A stretch of DNA of 43,384 bases from Williamsia sp. 1135 (GTDB lineage: Bacteria > Actinomycetota > Actinomycetes > Mycobacteriales > Mycobacteriaceae). The stretch's first letter is position 1. Each line of letters begins with the position of its first letter. Below are positions 1 through 13,722 of the stretch, piece by piece. Under the pieces are notes generated by a model. It was not told the origin of the DNA. It saw only the letters and a list, made by a program, of their open reading frames with translations, and made no database searches. Location: the NCBI RefSeq assembly GCF_002095395.1, contig NZ_MJEI01000064.1, positions 1 to 43,384 of the forward strand, written 5' to 3'. The translations under genes and the position numbers were made by a program.

Positions 1-197
1 CCTCGTCTGTCCAGACGACGCGGGCCGCCTGCCGGGCGGTGCGAGTTCGCCTTGCTCACCGCCTCCAGGCGGGTTCCGTCGACCGGGCCGATATCGCCGC
101 CGAGCGTGCCAAAGATGCCGTCGACCGTGCCGCTATCGCCGTCTTTGCTGCACGTTCGCCGACAAGAAGGGCACGTTCGGCGTGGTGGGGGTCTTGA
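1..197. repeat. Intergenic repeat cluster, copy A of the CGTCGANCGTGCC family
   Basis: No convincing gene is visible here; the open frames have no recognisable product. The stretch carries several copies of a short motif: CGTCGACCGTGCC near 118-130, a variant CGTCGACCGGGCC near 78-90, GAGCGTGCC near 102-110, and an inverted copy AGGGCACGTTCG near 169-180. The same motif recurs at about 10443-10530 and 12597-12643. All three sites lie just beyond the 3' end of a gene, here the minus-strand glycosyltransferase. It is probably a REP-like or terminator-like dispersed element. Confidence 0.5.
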
Positions 198-9045: not shown

Positions 9046-10442
9046 TGTCCGCACAATCGGTGGTCTTGCTGGCCGCCGACACCGAACTACCGGAGCCTGT
9101 CGCGGCCGGTTGGCAACTGATCGTGGCAGCGCTGGCCGGTATCGCGGTCATCGTCGTCCTCATCACGATCGCAAAAGTTCACCCCTTCCTGGCGCTGGTC
9201 TTCGGCGGTCTGACGGTGGGTGTGGTTGCCGGGGAGGCGATCCCGACTGTCCTCGAATCCTTCACCGACGGCTTCGGATCCACGGCAGCGGGTGTCGGCA
9301 TCCTGATCGCGCTGGGCGCGATGTTCGCCAAATTGCTCGCCGATTCCGGCGGCGCCGACGAGATCGTCGACACCATCGTCGGCCACGCCTCGCCGCGTAT
9401 GTTGCCCTGGGCGATGGCCCTGGTCGGCGCCATCATCGGTTTGCCGATGTTCTTCGAGATCGGCCTCGTTCTGCTCATGCCGGTCATCTACCTGGTGGCC
9501 CGACGCTCGGGTCTGTCGCTGATCACGGTCGGCATCCCTGCCCTTGCCGGCCTTTCTGCCATGCATGGCTTCGTGCCACCACATCCGGGGCCGCTGGTGG
9601 CGATCGACGCGCTCGGTGCTGACCTGGGCACCACGCTCGCACTCGGTGTCGTGGTGGCGGTACCGACGATCATCGTCGCCGGCCCCCTGTTCGGGAAGCT
9701 CGCAGGCAAATGGGTCGTACTTCCGGTGCCGACCACTTTCGACGCCGACCCCGCCGATGGTGAGACCACCAAACGGCCGTCCTTCGCGATCACGCTCTTC
9801 AGCGTTCTGCTCCCGGTTGTGTTGATGCTGGGCAAGGCCATTGCCGAGATCTTCATCGAGAACGATGACCAGATCGTGCGCCAGATCCTCGACGTCTTGG
9901 GTACGCCTGTCATCGCCCTCCTGATCGCGGTGGTGGTCGCGATGTTCACGCTTGGCCGTGGGTCAGGGATGGACCGCGACACCATCGCGAAGTGCACCGG
10001 TGCAGCCCTCCCGGCCATAGCCGGGATCCTGCTCATCGTTGCTGCGGGTGGTGGCTTCAAACAGGTGCTGGTCGACAGCGGGATCGGCACGCTCCTGGCC
10101 GACTGGGCGAGCGACGCGAACGTGTCGGTGCTCCTGCTCGGCTGGGTTCTCGCGGCACTCATCCGGCTCGCGACAGGCTCGGCGACGATTGCGACGATCA
10201 CCGCGTCCTCGCTGATGCTCGGACTGATCGACGGTCTCAGCAGCGGTGAGATCTCCCTGCTGGTGCTGGCGATCGGAGCCGGCTCGGTGTTCTTCTCCCA
10301 CGTCAACGACGCCGGCTTCTGGCTGGTGAAGGAGTACTTCGGTATGAGCGTCGGGCAGACGATCAAGACCTGGTCGATCATGGAGACGGTGTTGTCCGTG
10401 AGCGGTCTGATCGTGGTGCTGCTGCTCGGGTTGGTGATCTAA
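9045..10442 (+). CDS. gntP: Gluconate:H+ symporter, GntP family
   Basis: A 465-residue polytopic permease for gluconate uptake. It is hydrophobic throughout with about 12-14 membrane segments. Family features include LALVFGGLTVGVVAGE, GLPMFFEIGLVLLMPVIYL, HGFVPPHPGPLVAIDALGAD, and FSHVNDAGFWLVKEYF near the C-terminus. It starts within the last codon of gluconokinase (ATG 9045, GAGGAGAA upstream). With gntK and the divergent GntR regulator it forms a compact uptake-and-phosphorylation module. Just downstream, repeat copy B may serve as terminator. Confidence 0.93.
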   Translation: MSAQSVVLLAADTELPEPVAAGWQLIVAALAGIAVIVVLITIAKVHPFLALVFGGLTVGVVAGEAIPTVLESFTDGFGSTAAGVGILIALGAMFAKLLADSGGADEIVDTIVGHASPRMLPWAMALVGAIIGLPMFFEIGLVLLMPVIYLVARRSGLSLITVGIPALAGLSAMHGFVPPHPGPLVAIDALGADLGTTLALGVVVAVPTIIVAGPLFGKLAGKWVVLPVPTTFDADPADGETTKRPSFAITLFSVLLPVVLMLGKAIAEIFIENDDQIVRQILDVLGTPVIALLIAVVVAMFTLGRGSGMDRDTIAKCTGAALPAIAGILLIVAAGGGFKQVLVDSGIGTLLADWASDANVSVLLLGWVLAALIRLATGSATIATITASSLMLGLIDGLSSGEISLLVLAIGAGSVFFSHVNDAGFWLVKEYFGMSVGQTIKTWSIMETVLSVSGLIVVLLLGLVI

Positions 10443-10530
10443 CGACCGTCGATCGTGCCGTTATGAACGTCGATCGTGCCCTACTGAACGTCGATCGTGC
10501 CGTCGACGGGCAGTAGGGCACGTTCGGTCG
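10443..10530. repeat. Intergenic repeat cluster, copy B of the CGTCGANCGTGCC family
   Basis: Three direct copies of CGTCGATCGTGCC (starting near 10447, 10469 and 10490) are followed by an inverted copy, AGTAGGGCACGTTCGG, near 10512-10527. The block fills the gap between the convergent gntP and TetR genes. The inverted copies can fold back on the direct ones, so the block may act as a two-way terminator. Related blocks lie at 95-181 and 12597-12643. Confidence 0.75.
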
Positions 10531-10607: not shown

Positions 10608-11249
10608 CTACGTCGTGGCTACCGTTGGTTCGTCTGTCTCGTCGATCGCATTGAGGTAGTGGGTGGCCAGTTCGCCGAGGCCGGCTATGCCTTCGGCGAT
10701 TTGGCGGGTCAGGAGGTTGGGGTCCTCGCCGATTCTGCCGCGCAAGTTGCCGGTACGCCACAGTGTGGCCATGCCATGGGACATCGACCAGCCGGCCACT
10801 ACGACGCCGGTGATGTCGTCGGTAGGCGACGCTGCCAGGCTGGTTCGAGCGCTGTCGTAGAGGACCGCGAAGGCGGCGTCGCGGGCCTCGACAAGTGCTG
10901 GGTCTGCATCGCTGTACAAGTCTGGTCGGAACATCACCTCGTAGTACCCGGGGTGTGTGAGGGCGAACATGACGTAGGCCATGCCGCCGGTGACGAAGCC
11001 CTCAGGCCCGACCGCCACCGGCTCGATCGCGTCAACGGCCAGCCGAAAGCCCGCTGCGGCAATCGCGGTGAACAATCCAGACTTATCGCCGAACTGGTAT
11101 GCCAAGGCCGCATGCGTCACGCCTGCGCGCCGCGCGACCTCCCGCACGCTGACCGCGGCAGCGCCAACCCGCTCGACCTCTGCGACGGCTGCTGCGATCG
11201 CTGCCTCTCGCAGGTTGCCGTGGTGATAGGACCGGGGACCGACCGTCAT
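10608..11249 (-). CDS. TetR-family regulator next to a FAD monooxygenase
   Basis: 213 residues. The N-terminal helix-turn-helix is clear: GAAAVSVREVARRAGVTHAALAYQFGDKSGL. The C-terminal ligand domain (AYVMFALTHPGYYEVMFRPDLY) resembles the WHG subfamily of TetR C-terminal domains. ATG 11249 is the natural start. It is divergent from the FAD monooxygenase, and two near-identical 19-bp dyads lie in the 94-bp gap, so it most likely represses both genes and is released by the monooxygenase substrate or a related aromatic/drug-like compound (inference). Confidence 0.85.
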   Translation of the reverse strand: MTVGPRSYHHGNLREAAIAAAVAEVERVGAAAVSVREVARRAGVTHAALAYQFGDKSGLFTAIAAAGFRLAVDAIEPVAVGPEGFVTGGMAYVMFALTHPGYYEVMFRPDLYSDADPALVEARDAAFAVLYDSARTSLAASPTDDITGVVVAGWSMSHGMATLWRTGNLRGRIGEDPNLLTRQIAEGIAGLGELATHYLNAIDETDEPTVATT

Positions 11250-11268
11250 GGCGTGAGCGTAACGCAGG

Positions 11269-11287
11269 AACTAACCATTGATAAGTT
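11269..11287. promoter_or_regulatory. TetR operator site 1
   Basis: AACTAACCATTGATAAGTT, an imperfect 19-bp dyad that matches site 2 (11303-11321) at 16 of 19 positions. It begins 20 bases before the TetR start codon. The two sites are 34 bp apart, about three helix turns. Confidence 0.65.
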
Positions 11288-11302
11288 TGGCCGCTTGCGG
11301 CA

Positions 11303-11321
11303 AACTATCCACTGGTAAGTT
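11303..11321. promoter_or_regulatory. TetR operator site 2
   Basis: AACTATCCACTGGTAAGTT, the second imperfect 19-bp dyad, 22 bases before the monooxygenase ATG. Shared ends AACT and AGTT and the CCA/TGG half-sites mark it as the same binding site as 11269-11287. Confidence 0.65.
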
Positions 11322-11343
11322 TTCGAGGACCGGGACGGATCAC

Positions 11344-12582
11344 ATGGCACAGGACTTTGATGTCGTGGTCGTAGGAGCGCGCTGCGCCGGCTCGCCGCTG
11401 GCGGTGATGCTCGCCCGTCGCGGGCTGAGTGTCTGTGTCGTGGACAAGGCGGAATTTCCGTCAGAGACGCCCCCTACCCACGTCATTCAGCCATGCGGGG
11501 TGTCCATCCTCGACCGCATCGGGGTCCTCGACGCTGCGCTCGCCGCCGGTGGCGTGTTGATCGACCAGATCTCGCTGGTGAACGACGACGTTCGTGTCAA
11601 CGGAACACTCGATCCCGGGGTGTTTCCGCAGCCGGGTTTGTGCGTGCGAAGGCTGACGCTCGACGCGTTGCTCGTTTCTGCGGCCGTCGCGGCTGGTGTG
11701 GACGTGCGAACTGGCGTGAAGGTGACGAGTCTGATCACCGTCGGGGGTCGTGTGGTCGGCGTCGAGACCGCGCATGGGCCGATCCGGGGCCATGTGGTGG
11801 TTGGTGCCGACGGTCGGCAGTCCAAAGTTGCTGCCACCGTTGGGGCGCAGGAATATCTGAGCACTCCGGGTCTCCGGACTCCGGCGTGGGCCTATTTTGA
11901 GGGGGTGCCAGACCGGTCGGGTCGGTTGCGGCTGGGCCGCATTGGTGAATGTGCATTCCTTGCCAGTCCGACGGACTCAGATCTTTACATGGTGTGCATT
12001 GCCACCGGCAGTGGGTTCGGCAAGGATCGTGCATCGGCGTTCTCTGCCGCACTCGACCACTGGCCCGAGCTCGCCGGCCTCCTGGTTGGGGCGAATCGGG
12101 TTGGACCCATTCGGGTGATGACCAACTGGCACGGCTACTTTCGTCAAGCGGCAGGACCCGGATGGGTCCTGCTCGGTGATGCCGGACACTTCAAGGACTT
12201 CTCGCTGGCGCAGGGCATCTCCGACGCTCTGCGGCAAGCCGTGCGCCTCGCAGACATGATGCCCGACGACCTGTCCGATCACGAGGCACTCGACGCGGCA
12301 ACGCGCAAGTGGTGGAATTGGCGCGACGGCGACGCGCACGCGATGTACTGGTTCGCAACAGACTCAGGCGCTCCCGGACCGCCTACGCCGTTGGGCCACC
12401 GAGGTGCTTCGGCACATCTCCGCGGATCCGTTGTCTACGATTACGTTGTTGCAGACTCTCAACCACGAGGTCCACCCGAGAACGCTCCTGACTCCACAGC
12501 GCATTGCCCTCGCCATGATCCGCGGGCTCCGGAAACATCCTGTTCTGACCACCAAGGAAGTTGGCACCACGCTCCGGAATGA
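11344..12582 (+). CDS. FAD-dependent monooxygenase, probably frameshifted near the C-terminus
   Basis: A class A flavin monooxygenase/geranylgeranyl reductase-like enzyme that would hydroxylate or reduce a small organic substrate with NAD(P)H. The FAD-binding start is VVVGARCAGSPLAVMLARRG, the DG motif is VVGADGRQSKVA, and the second FAD motif is LLGDAGHFKDFSLAQGISDA. The frame as it stands encodes 412 residues, but after MYWFATDSGAPGP (near 12380) it turns into unlikely sequence. The +1 frame then gives LRRWATEVLRHISADPLSTI and LNHEVHPRTLLTPQRIALAM, the usual family ending, up to a stop at 12649. One extra C near 12374-12383 explains this. It is either a real mutation or a sequencing error. 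The gene is divergent from its likely TetR repressor. Confidence 0.8.
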   Translation: MAQDFDVVVVGARCAGSPLAVMLARRGLSVCVVDKAEFPSETPPTHVIQPCGVSILDRIGVLDAALAAGGVLIDQISLVNDDVRVNGTLDPGVFPQPGLCVRRLTLDALLVSAAVAAGVDVRTGVKVTSLITVGGRVVGVETAHGPIRGHVVVGADGRQSKVAATVGAQEYLSTPGLRTPAWAYFEGVPDRSGRLRLGRIGECAFLASPTDSDLYMVCIATGSGFGKDRASAFSAALDHWPELAGLLVGANRVGPIRVMTNWHGYFRQAAGPGWVLLGDAGHFKDFSLAQGISDALRQAVRLADMMPDDLSDHEALDAATRKWWNWRDGDAHAMYWFATDSGAPGPPTPLGHRGASAHLRGSVVYDYVVADSQPRGPPENAPDSTAHCPRHDPRAPETSCSDHQGSWHHAPE

Positions 12583-12596
12583 AATCCTTCGTGCCC

Positions 12597-12643
12597 GGGG
12601 ACAGCAAGGGCACGCTCGACGGCAACAAGGGCACGCTCGACGG
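12597..12643. repeat. Intergenic repeat, copy C of the CGTCGANCGTGCC family
   Basis: Two tandem copies of AAGGGCACGCTCGACGG (about 12606-12622 and 12627-12643), spaced by four bases. The reverse complement CCGTCGAGCGTGCCCTT matches the motif in copies A and B. It lies between the convergent monooxygenase and secreted-protein genes. In the restored monooxygenase frame, the repeat is translated into the last residues (QQGHARRQQGHARRL), so the element may have been acquired at the gene's end. Confidence 0.7.
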
Positions 12644-12668
12644 TTATGAATGCCCGGTCGGCGCAGGC

Positions 12669-13634
12669 CTAGGGTGCGGCGGTACGGGCGTTCGGGTCGA
12701 AACCGCCCGGGATCTCGTAGATGTCGCCATCGAACCCGGCGCGGAACAACCGGCCGTCCGAGAACCCTGCGCCGCCGCGGCCGTAGGTGACCACACTCGA
12801 GCCCGGGAGCCCGGAGGCCAACGCGCAGAACTGGTTCGGTCCGGTGACCCGAAGGATCTCACCACTGATGTCGGTCGGCACGATAGGACGGTTGCGGGAA
12901 TCGAGCGTCAAACCGTCGGCGGCAGCGATGACGTCGCCGCCCCCGAAGGTCACCAGCGACTGGGGGGCTCCGGGGTTTCGCAACGGGATGCGACTCACGC
13001 CGGGATTGACGAAGGTGCGGGACACGTAGAGGTAGGAGTCGTCGTTGCCCAGGACAGCACCGTTGGCACTGGGTAGGCTCGCCCAATCCGCCTGCACCGC
13101 GCCGTTCGGGAACACTCGGCCTATCAGCGATCCGAAATCGTTGGTGGCGTAGGTGACCCCGTTCGCGGCCACCGCCAGACCGTTCGCGGCGCTGAGCCCG
13201 CCGACGAACGGAGTCAGACGCCTGGTCGCCGGATTGAACTTCGCGATCGACGCCGCGCGTATCGCGTCGCCGACCAGGACCCGAGGATCCGCGCCGTAAC
13301 CGACCAGCAGCGTGCCGTCTGGAGTCCAGGCCAGGGCGCCGCCTCCGTTACCGCCGGGGACGGTCGCGACCGGTATCGCCCTGGCTCCCGGGCGGTCGAC
13401 CCGGTAGAGACGGCCGGTGACGATGTCGGTCGTGTAGAGCCTGCCGGCCGGATCGACGGTCACGCCTTCGAGGGCCGCCCCGGGGATGCGCGCGACGAGT
13501 ACGGGGGCCTGCCCGGCTCCGGGGCAGATGCCCGCGGCATTCGCCGCCGGGATGCTGACCAAGGACACGGTGACCGCGACCAGCGCACTGACCATCGCGA
13601 GACGGAGAACCGATCGCACGGATGACTTCGACAT
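12669..13634 (-). CDS. Secreted NHL/SMP-30-like beta-propeller protein
   Basis: 321 residues with a Sec signal peptide (KSSVRSVLRLAMVSALVAVT, cleavage near ANAAG). The mature part has propeller-type repeats: LEGVTVDPAGRLYTTDIVTG, GGALAWTPDGTLLVGYGAD, NGLAVAANGVTYATNDFGS and DGLTLDSRNRPIVPTDISG. These resemble SMP-30/gluconolactonase and NHL proteins; whether it is an enzyme is unclear. ATG 13634 is chosen because GGAGG stands just upstream and the signal peptide begins there; the frame extends to 13718 without support. It is convergent with the monooxygenase and divergent from the Fur-like regulator gene. Confidence 0.8.
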   Translation of the reverse strand: MSKSSVRSVLRLAMVSALVAVTVSLVSIPAANAAGICPGAGQAPVLVARIPGAALEGVTVDPAGRLYTTDIVTGRLYRVDRPGARAIPVATVPGGNGGGALAWTPDGTLLVGYGADPRVLVGDAIRAASIAKFNPATRRLTPFVGGLSAANGLAVAANGVTYATNDFGSLIGRVFPNGAVQADWASLPSANGAVLGNDDSYLYVSRTFVNPGVSRIPLRNPGAPQSLVTFGGGDVIAAADGLTLDSRNRPIVPTDISGEILRVTGPNQFCALASGLPGSSVVTYGRGGAGFSDGRLFRAGFDGDIYEIPGGFDPNARTAAP

Positions 13635-13722
13635 GGTTGCCTCCAGGCTGAGCTGAGAGTCCAAGACTATGTGAGGGCGGTCACCGACGACCTGCCTGTC
13701 GGTTTTGTCGCGATTCACGCGT

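Follow-up and report, generated by a model that had tools for sequence, protein, structure and literature searches.

Introduction

In the textbook view, transcription in bacteria ends at an RNA hairpin or else through Rho. In eukaryotic rDNA, the terminators of TTF-I (the Sal box) and Reb1 consist of repeated, oriented protein sites past the gene end which stop the polymerase. For REP/BIME elements, roles in Rho-dependent termination and gyrase binding have been reported, and the tandem BIME-2 arrays of E. coli are reported to bind gyrase (PMC2817692). CGTC-tagged repeats are short intergenic sequences that fold as single hairpins, with an invariant unpaired CGTC at one end, and have no dedicated transposase known; the five phyla from which they are reported do not include Actinobacteria (PMC3733652). 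Additionally, Rho has been reported to define mRNA 3′ ends in M. tuberculosis (PMC5379054).

The stretch of DNA analyzed here, referred to as the window, is a whole contig (positions 1-43384; 43,384 nucleotides) of the 5.98-Mb genome of Williamsia sp. 1135, which is in 107 contigs. It carries three sites of a repeat that resembles REP/BIME elements in being dispersed, extragenic, high in copy number and clustered in direct and inverted order. In contrast to the palindromic REP unit, the Williamsia unit is 21 bp long, not self-complementary by consensus and mostly found in sense after stop codons. The original prediction had called the sites REP-like and had proposed looking for a linked RAYT-type transposase. 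That likeness was not borne out, as one-sided arrays, in sense, fold on average no better than shuffled sequence and the RAYT/Y1 transposase family (PF01797) is absent from all nine Williamsia genomes while matched in 5 of 14 control genomes. A REP element with its RAYT was rejected on the absence of PF01797.

With the CGTC-tagged repeats the Williamsia repeat shares shortness, an intergenic location and a CGYC stretch, but the variable base is C at a frequency of 0.50 and T at 0.48 (214 units), half of the units thus reading CGCC, and there is no hairpin per unit. The arrays resemble rut sites in being C-rich, unfolded and just past the coding region, and differ in their exact 21-bp period, fixed core and helical phasing. 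Indeed, the RNA features of a Rho-dependent terminator (more C than G, and no structure after the coding region) are found in the arrays; with regard to the downstream stem-loop of an intrinsic terminator, two-sided arrays fold strongly and one-sided ones do not. Like the sites of TTF-I and Reb1, the units are repeated and oriented just past the gene end; those factors belong to another domain of life, and a likeness in the letters GTCGACC is no test. A search of the literature on Williamsia and Gordonia repeats and on actinobacterial intergenic repeats, judged by titles and the start of abstracts and covering few subscription papers, returned no description of this repeat.

Materials and Methods

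Nine Williamsia genomes were compared: the query and eight others, namely W. faeni DSM 45372 (G106), W. soli C17 (G119), Williamsia sp. 1138 (G076), W. muralis BULT 1.1 (G010), W. limnetica DSM 45521 (G059) and three referred to by code (G092, G040 and G131). By the gntP gene, the closest relatives of the query are W. soli C17 and Williamsia sp. 1138 (96%). The record NZ_JNYV01000003.1, titled Kitasatospora arboriphila NRRL B-24581, corresponds to the Williamsia-placed G092 and is probably mislabelled. Genus g9 of the family sample is Gordonia: locus L324 of G256 has 27 exact 100-mers in common with L180 of Gordonia araii NBRC 100433.

For gene calling we used a purpose-written codon-usage script in place of a standard caller. 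About 2.02 of the 5.98 Mb of the query genome was covered, made up of a 1.61-Mb sample (seven contigs, whole or nearly so, that were selected by length with their core hits known beforehand) and 0.41 Mb chosen around hits. From W. faeni and G. araii, 8-kb loci were used, every one selected by a triple-unit match. This search yielded 98 stretches, all of which were used in the counts of orientation, spacing and phase except duplicates of a centre. For the ortholog comparison, 12 gene ends were hand-picked from 24, and 68 of the resulting ortholog 3′ ends were read.

Results

The repeat unit

The unit is a non-palindromic sequence of 21 bp, about CCGYCGASCGTGCC plus seven variable bases, arranged head to tail. 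Over 214 units the consensus reads C C G Y C G A S C G T G C C, with the seven variable bases after it. The core, CGTCGANCGTGCC, occurs 10 times in the window with at most one mismatch, against 1.5 expected, and 0 of 100 shuffled sequences reached 10. The genome-wide count called for by the original prediction gave 65 exact cores in the query genome against 1 for the reversed pattern, and 141 tandem dimers (at most three mismatches) against 0. Similarly, a position weight matrix (PWM) applied to 1.61 Mb recovered 122 units, and 6 when the sequence was reversed. Because solitary cores are also fairly common in array-free genomes of the family (mostly 0 to about 50, with 96 in G018), a core by itself makes a poor probe, and the single exact core was discarded for this use as too common in the family's coding DNA.

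Adjacent units differ at a mean of 5.0 of their 21 positions. A change of length was seen in 4 of 153 adjacent pairs, against 750 substitutions over the other 149. The repeat family is real, and we regard its description as very secure.

Three sites in the window

The original prediction had placed copies at 78-181, 10443-10530 and 12597-12643. All three sites were recovered, but their limits had to be redrawn (Table 1), and site 3 holds one unit more than had been listed. As predicted, two of the sites lie between convergent genes: site 2 between the GntP permease gene (end 10442) and the TetR gene (end 10608, minus strand), and site 3 between the FAD-enzyme gene (end 12582) and the SGL-like gene (end 12669, minus strand). 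Site 1 follows the end, at 198, of a minus-strand gene; on the other side of the site the neighbour falls beyond the contig end. The inner arms of site 2, 29 bp apart, are in helical phase, and its RNA, with the degenerate arm included, folds with a z of -4.4 over 93 nt. Site 3 is one-sided and in the sense of the SGL-like gene, with an RNA fold z of +1.1. Rfam 15 gave no match in the window at gathering score.

Table 1. Repeat sites and neighbouring genes in the window (> and <, units on the plus and minus strand)
Feature	Position	Strand	Evidence or remark
Site 1, three-unit array (>>>)	76..138	+	PWM units; exact core 119-131
Site 1, one-mismatch cores	77-89, 98-110	+	core match
Site 1, single opposing unit (<)	163..183	-	PWM; 14 nt past stop of minus-strand gene ending 198
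GntP family permease gene	9060..10442	+	PF02447, E 4.9e-138; 3′ end bears site 2
Site 2, three-unit array (>>>)	10446..10508	+	begins 3 nt past GntP permease stop, in the gene's sense
Site 2, degenerate opposing arm (<)	about 10517..10530	-	29 bp from innermost > core
Two-gene block, TetR regulator (-) and FAD-binding enzyme (+)	10608..12582	.	between sites 2 and 3
Site 3, three-unit array (<<<)	12602..12664	-	4 nt past stop of minus-strand SGL-like gene
SGL-like gene (weak, below Pfam cut-off)	12669..13718	-	3′ end bears site 3

W. soli is without the TetR/FAD-enzyme block at this place, and the flanking genes there are about 25 bp apart. A stretch 71% similar to the pair (10608-12582) is found elsewhere in W. 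limnetica. Arrays may be entry places for cassettes, as with this pair standing between two of them.

The contig itself begins inside a copy of another dispersed repeat, which measures about 130-175 bp (GAGCGAGCGAAGCGA-type; window 1-75). With a 176-nt query for this repeat (G000:C30:68454-68629), blast returned 12 hits in 2.02 Mb, the query itself among them; array units stand within 400 bases of 9 of the 12.

Arrays follow stop codons in the sense of the gene

In the 2.02 Mb covered, we found 60 runs of at least two units, 55 of which are intergenic; 35 single PWM hits, 27 of them within genes, represent background. Thirty of the 55 intergenic runs lie in convergent gaps and 15 behind a gene whose next gene is codirectional. 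Nine more (6 and 3) run against the upstream gene, and one has no called upstream gene. Thus, where an upstream gene was called, 45 of 54 intergenic arrays run in its sense (binomial p 7e-7), in keeping with the predicted placement next to gene 3′ ends. From the stop codon to the first unit of these 45, the median distance is 14 nt; it is at most 25 nt in 27, and the longest is 557 nt.

Convergent gaps hold 13 of 22 classifiable intergenic arrays in the 1.61-Mb sample, while making up 10% of intergenic bases (p 3e-8). The original prediction of a dispersed, lineage-specific and mostly intergenic family at gene 3′ ends is supported, with enrichment between convergent genes. The core is not equally frequent inside genes: 17 of 21 exact cores in this sample sit in arrays, all 17 intergenic, and the other four are solitary and inside genes, at a gene coverage of 91.5%. 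The predicted direct plus inverted arrangement arises where both genes of a convergent pair have a sense array of their own; this is so in 8 of 19 convergent array gaps, whereas 9 are one-sided and 2 have a single unit. Arrays are unevenly spread along the genome, with 2 runs in the 453 kb of contig C58 and 6 in the 140 kb of C15.

The sense orientation also predominates elsewhere, among arrays with a called upstream gene: 65 of 72 in W. faeni, 15 of 18 in other Williamsia, 14 of 19 in other Gordonia, and 28 of 37 in G. araii, on which the gene script was untrained and where it placed 14 of 52 runs within genes. Closeness to the stop codon is weaker in W. faeni and other Gordonia, where about half of the distances are at most 25 nt.

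Spacing and helical phase

Successive same-strand hits (n=138) are 21 bp apart in 129 cases and 42 bp in 6, with one case each at 18, 20 and 22 bp. In W. faeni, steps other than 21 bp include 30-32 bp, equal to three turns, at some five distinct loci, and 14 bp and 23 bp at a single locus each; in addition, two loci show nested core matches, at 9 and 12 bp. Once the arrays are removed, 3′ regions show no general 21-nt periodicity (lag 21, z 0.7).

Where arrays oppose each other, the distance between inner cores falls near multiples of about 10.5 bp minus 2, in classes of 19-20, 29-33, 38-43, 50-51, 61-63 and 71 bp (R 0.83 over 44 distinct centres, which are left of 75 once similar ones are dropped). 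The period was first noticed in the query genome and then tested on other genomes. Because the centres of the W. faeni 40-bp class are related (mean identity 0.53), these sites are not independent. Without the 38-42 bp class, 26 centres gave R 0.81 (p 4e-8) and a best period of 10.5-10.7 in a scan from 5 to 20; additionally leaving out the discovery genome gave R 0.77 (n=20, p 7e-6). Counting each distance once gave a simulated p of 2e-5 (n=14). The three opposing centres available in Gordonia gave no significant phase (p 0.19). An overlooked degenerate unit would shift a distance by 21 bp, and therefore leaves the phase unaffected.

The phasing of opposing arrays, together with the 21-bp step, speaks for a protein bound along one face of double-stranded DNA. 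Such binding predicts the phase, which neither RNA pairing nor Rho loading does.

Folding and orthologous 3′ ends

One-sided runs make up 32 of the 60, and their sense RNA is less folded than shuffles (mean z +0.75). Among convergent 3′ ends with only a sense array, 0 of 18 reached z<-2, against 64% of 124 ends without an array (57% at z<-3). This comparison used 70-nt windows, so the lack of hairpins is partly built in because the windows are mostly array. A fairer test, limited to 8 array gaps, looked for stems of at least 10 bp in whole gaps of 60-200 nt, and found them in 0 of 8 one-sided array gaps and in 26 of 57 array-free gaps (p 0.018). In contrast to one-sided runs, sites with a >< junction fold: of 13, one of mixed order was omitted, and in each of the other 12 z was below zero for both strands, ranging from -1.1 to -11.0.

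Behind gntP, arrays are present in the query and in W. faeni, the latter unfolded (z +1.8). Six of the eight relatives (G131, G040, G092, W. muralis, Williamsia sp. 1138 and W. limnetica) fold strongly in the first 80 nt, with z of -4.6 to -9.3; in W. soli the gap is about 25 bp and z is -0.9. The gap between the HSP90 and class-V aminotransferase genes (Pfam) likewise holds arrays in the query and W. faeni. There, a single hairpin with array-core arms occurs in W. limnetica, W. soli, Williamsia sp. 1138, W. muralis and G040, and other hairpins in G092 (z -3.9) and G131 (z -6.1). At the gap labelled A/B, the query has 13 units, W. faeni has arrays, W. soli has a core hairpin and W. limnetica has neither. 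One-sided arrays at the ends labelled C and D keep their place and sense in the query, W. soli, Williamsia sp. 1138 and W. limnetica.

Over the 68 ortholog 3′ ends, at least two sense units were found in 14, and in 0 of the 24 from W. muralis, G040, G131 and G092. Of the other 54, a stem of at least 10 bp is present in 12 (8 gap-genome cases), leaving 42 with neither array nor stem. A simple rule by which array and hairpin replace each other is weakened because many relatives are without a visible terminator at these ends.

A simple core hairpin was also considered as the dispersed ancestral form and was rejected: the exact pattern, with a gap of 2-22 nt, occurs in 14 of 401 genomes (reversed, 1 of 401). 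Four of nine Williamsia genomes have one each, always in the HSP90 gap, and two Gordonia genomes have 14 (G387) and 6 (G151). Because the exact pattern is rare, the hairpin is not the common form of the core. As a separate observation, some 3′ gaps have long hairpins in which a direct repeat about 9 nt long recurs in each arm at a period of 19 nt. Twelve gaps in 2.02 Mb passed a lag-19 test, and 8 are alike by eye (G000:C48:40294, C48:228683, C30:26979, C54:48441, C54:13536, C48:316900, C35:128474 and C30:113719).

Distribution and turnover

Tandem dimers occur in all nine Williamsia genomes, at 2-386 copies, G040 (9) and G131 (2) being array-poor. In the family sample, 260 of 401 genomes have at least one dimer match, mostly 0-7 per genome. 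Several Gordonia genomes are rich in dimers (G256, 354; G141, 178; G387, 156; G399, 137; G129, 80; G151, 66; G201, 48), and a looser pattern matched at least once in 45 of 59 Gordonia genomes, with counts of 0 to 271. In addition, 49 dimers were found in G016 (g16) and 19-26 in three g18 genomes. In a class sample, at no more than two mismatches, the query has 91 dimers, and each of the 196 other genomes has 0-2. Williamsia and G. araii, together with a few others, have units ending in GTGCC, and several other Gordonia have the variant GTGCG or GTGCA.

Between species, arrays turn over fast by gain, shrinkage and loss. At one gap, W. soli has >>>><<<< where the query has two degenerate units (seen by eye). 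Near-identical arrays stand at unlinked loci. A plasmid- or phage-borne mobile element was discarded as a source, one 90-nt array query having matched neither the plasmid nor the phage collection.

Discussion

A role for the arrays in 3′-end formation is likely. We think that they may well be, at slightly short of an even chance, a lineage-specific and protein-dependent 3′-end or terminator element served by a putative DNA-binding protein. Of the possible mechanisms, this is the one best supported by the phasing of the sites, as read from sequence. The 21-bp sites follow one another head to tail, keep to one face of the helix, and stand just past stop codons in the gene's sense; in about half of the array-bearing convergent gaps each gene has its own array, the two facing at whole helical turns. 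Set against this reading are the nine arrays that run counter to their upstream gene and the many ortholog ends with neither array nor stem. A candidate sequence-specific protein would bind the units cooperatively and, once bound, would block or end transcription, the array doing the terminator's job. Where opposing arms are close, the RNA could additionally form a hairpin. The original prediction had suggested two-way termination or protection of mRNA 3′ ends; the evidence for 3′-end formation, although indirect, agrees with this, while the helical phase suggests that the DNA duplex is what is recognized, and not solely an RNA hairpin.

A different reader of the same sequences would be Rho. 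In that account the arrays are modular loading (rut) sites, providing C-rich, G-poor and unfolded RNA where ribosomes leave, and Rho ends transcription downstream. We consider this unlikely, but have kept it alive because the sense arrays are C-rich, G-poor, YC-rich and unfolded. Their sense strand has C at 0.389 and G at 0.294, against 0.320 and 0.307 in other 3′ regions, and YC dinucleotides at 0.204 per nt, against 0.163 in other 3′ regions and 0.105 in antisense; in G. araii units, C is 0.454 and G is 0.247. On the other side, Rho is not known to need an exact 21-bp step, a near-invariant core or an opposite-strand helical phase. Less probable still is a role as pads for gyrase or a nucleoid protein, similar to BIME-2, which would relieve supercoils between convergent genes while transcription is not ended. 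Enrichment in convergent gaps, phased tandem sites and the gyrase binding reported for BIME-2 arrays fit this, yet it does not lead one to expect closeness to stop codons, sense orientation or a lack of hairpins, nor the 15 arrays in codirectional gaps.

We give lower standing again to plain bidirectional RNA hairpins, with opposing units paired in RNA and acting as terminators or mRNA 3′ protectors. The negative z of all 12 folded >< sites on both strands, the simple hairpin built from the array core in the HSP90 gap, and the W. faeni centres, which lengthen the stem of opposing arms, are what such hairpins would produce. However, more than half of the runs are one-sided and on average no better folded than shuffles, those at ends C and D are unchanged in position and orientation across the query and three relatives, and hairpins do not need a 10.5-bp phase. 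Finally, the arrays could be selfish or neutral repeats spread by recombination between arrays and tolerated in 3′ gaps, as the fast gain and loss between close species, the near-identical arrays at unlinked loci and the 42 of 54 array-poor ortholog ends that also lack a strong stem might suggest. This seems improbable, since the sense bias, the few length changes despite many substitutions and the phase across arrays need either selection or an odd insertion mechanism; in addition, no RAYT-type transposase was found in the Williamsia genomes, and the 90-nt query had no plasmid or phage match.

A protein-dependent 3′-end element thus remains our preferred reading, and a bolder form of it is possible though doubtful. 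A helix-phased row of a putative reader protein on tandem 21-bp sites past stop codons would halt RNA polymerase and replace intrinsic terminators, site and reader having diverged together between species. Just as doubtfully, it would serve dozens to hundreds of genes across Williamsia and in some Gordonia. If true, bacteria would have a further way to define 3′ ends, by DNA and protein. The phase rule makes a direct prediction: insertion of a half turn would break the element, and insertion of a full turn would not. The fast turnover of arrays between close species would also be a natural experiment in terminator replacement.
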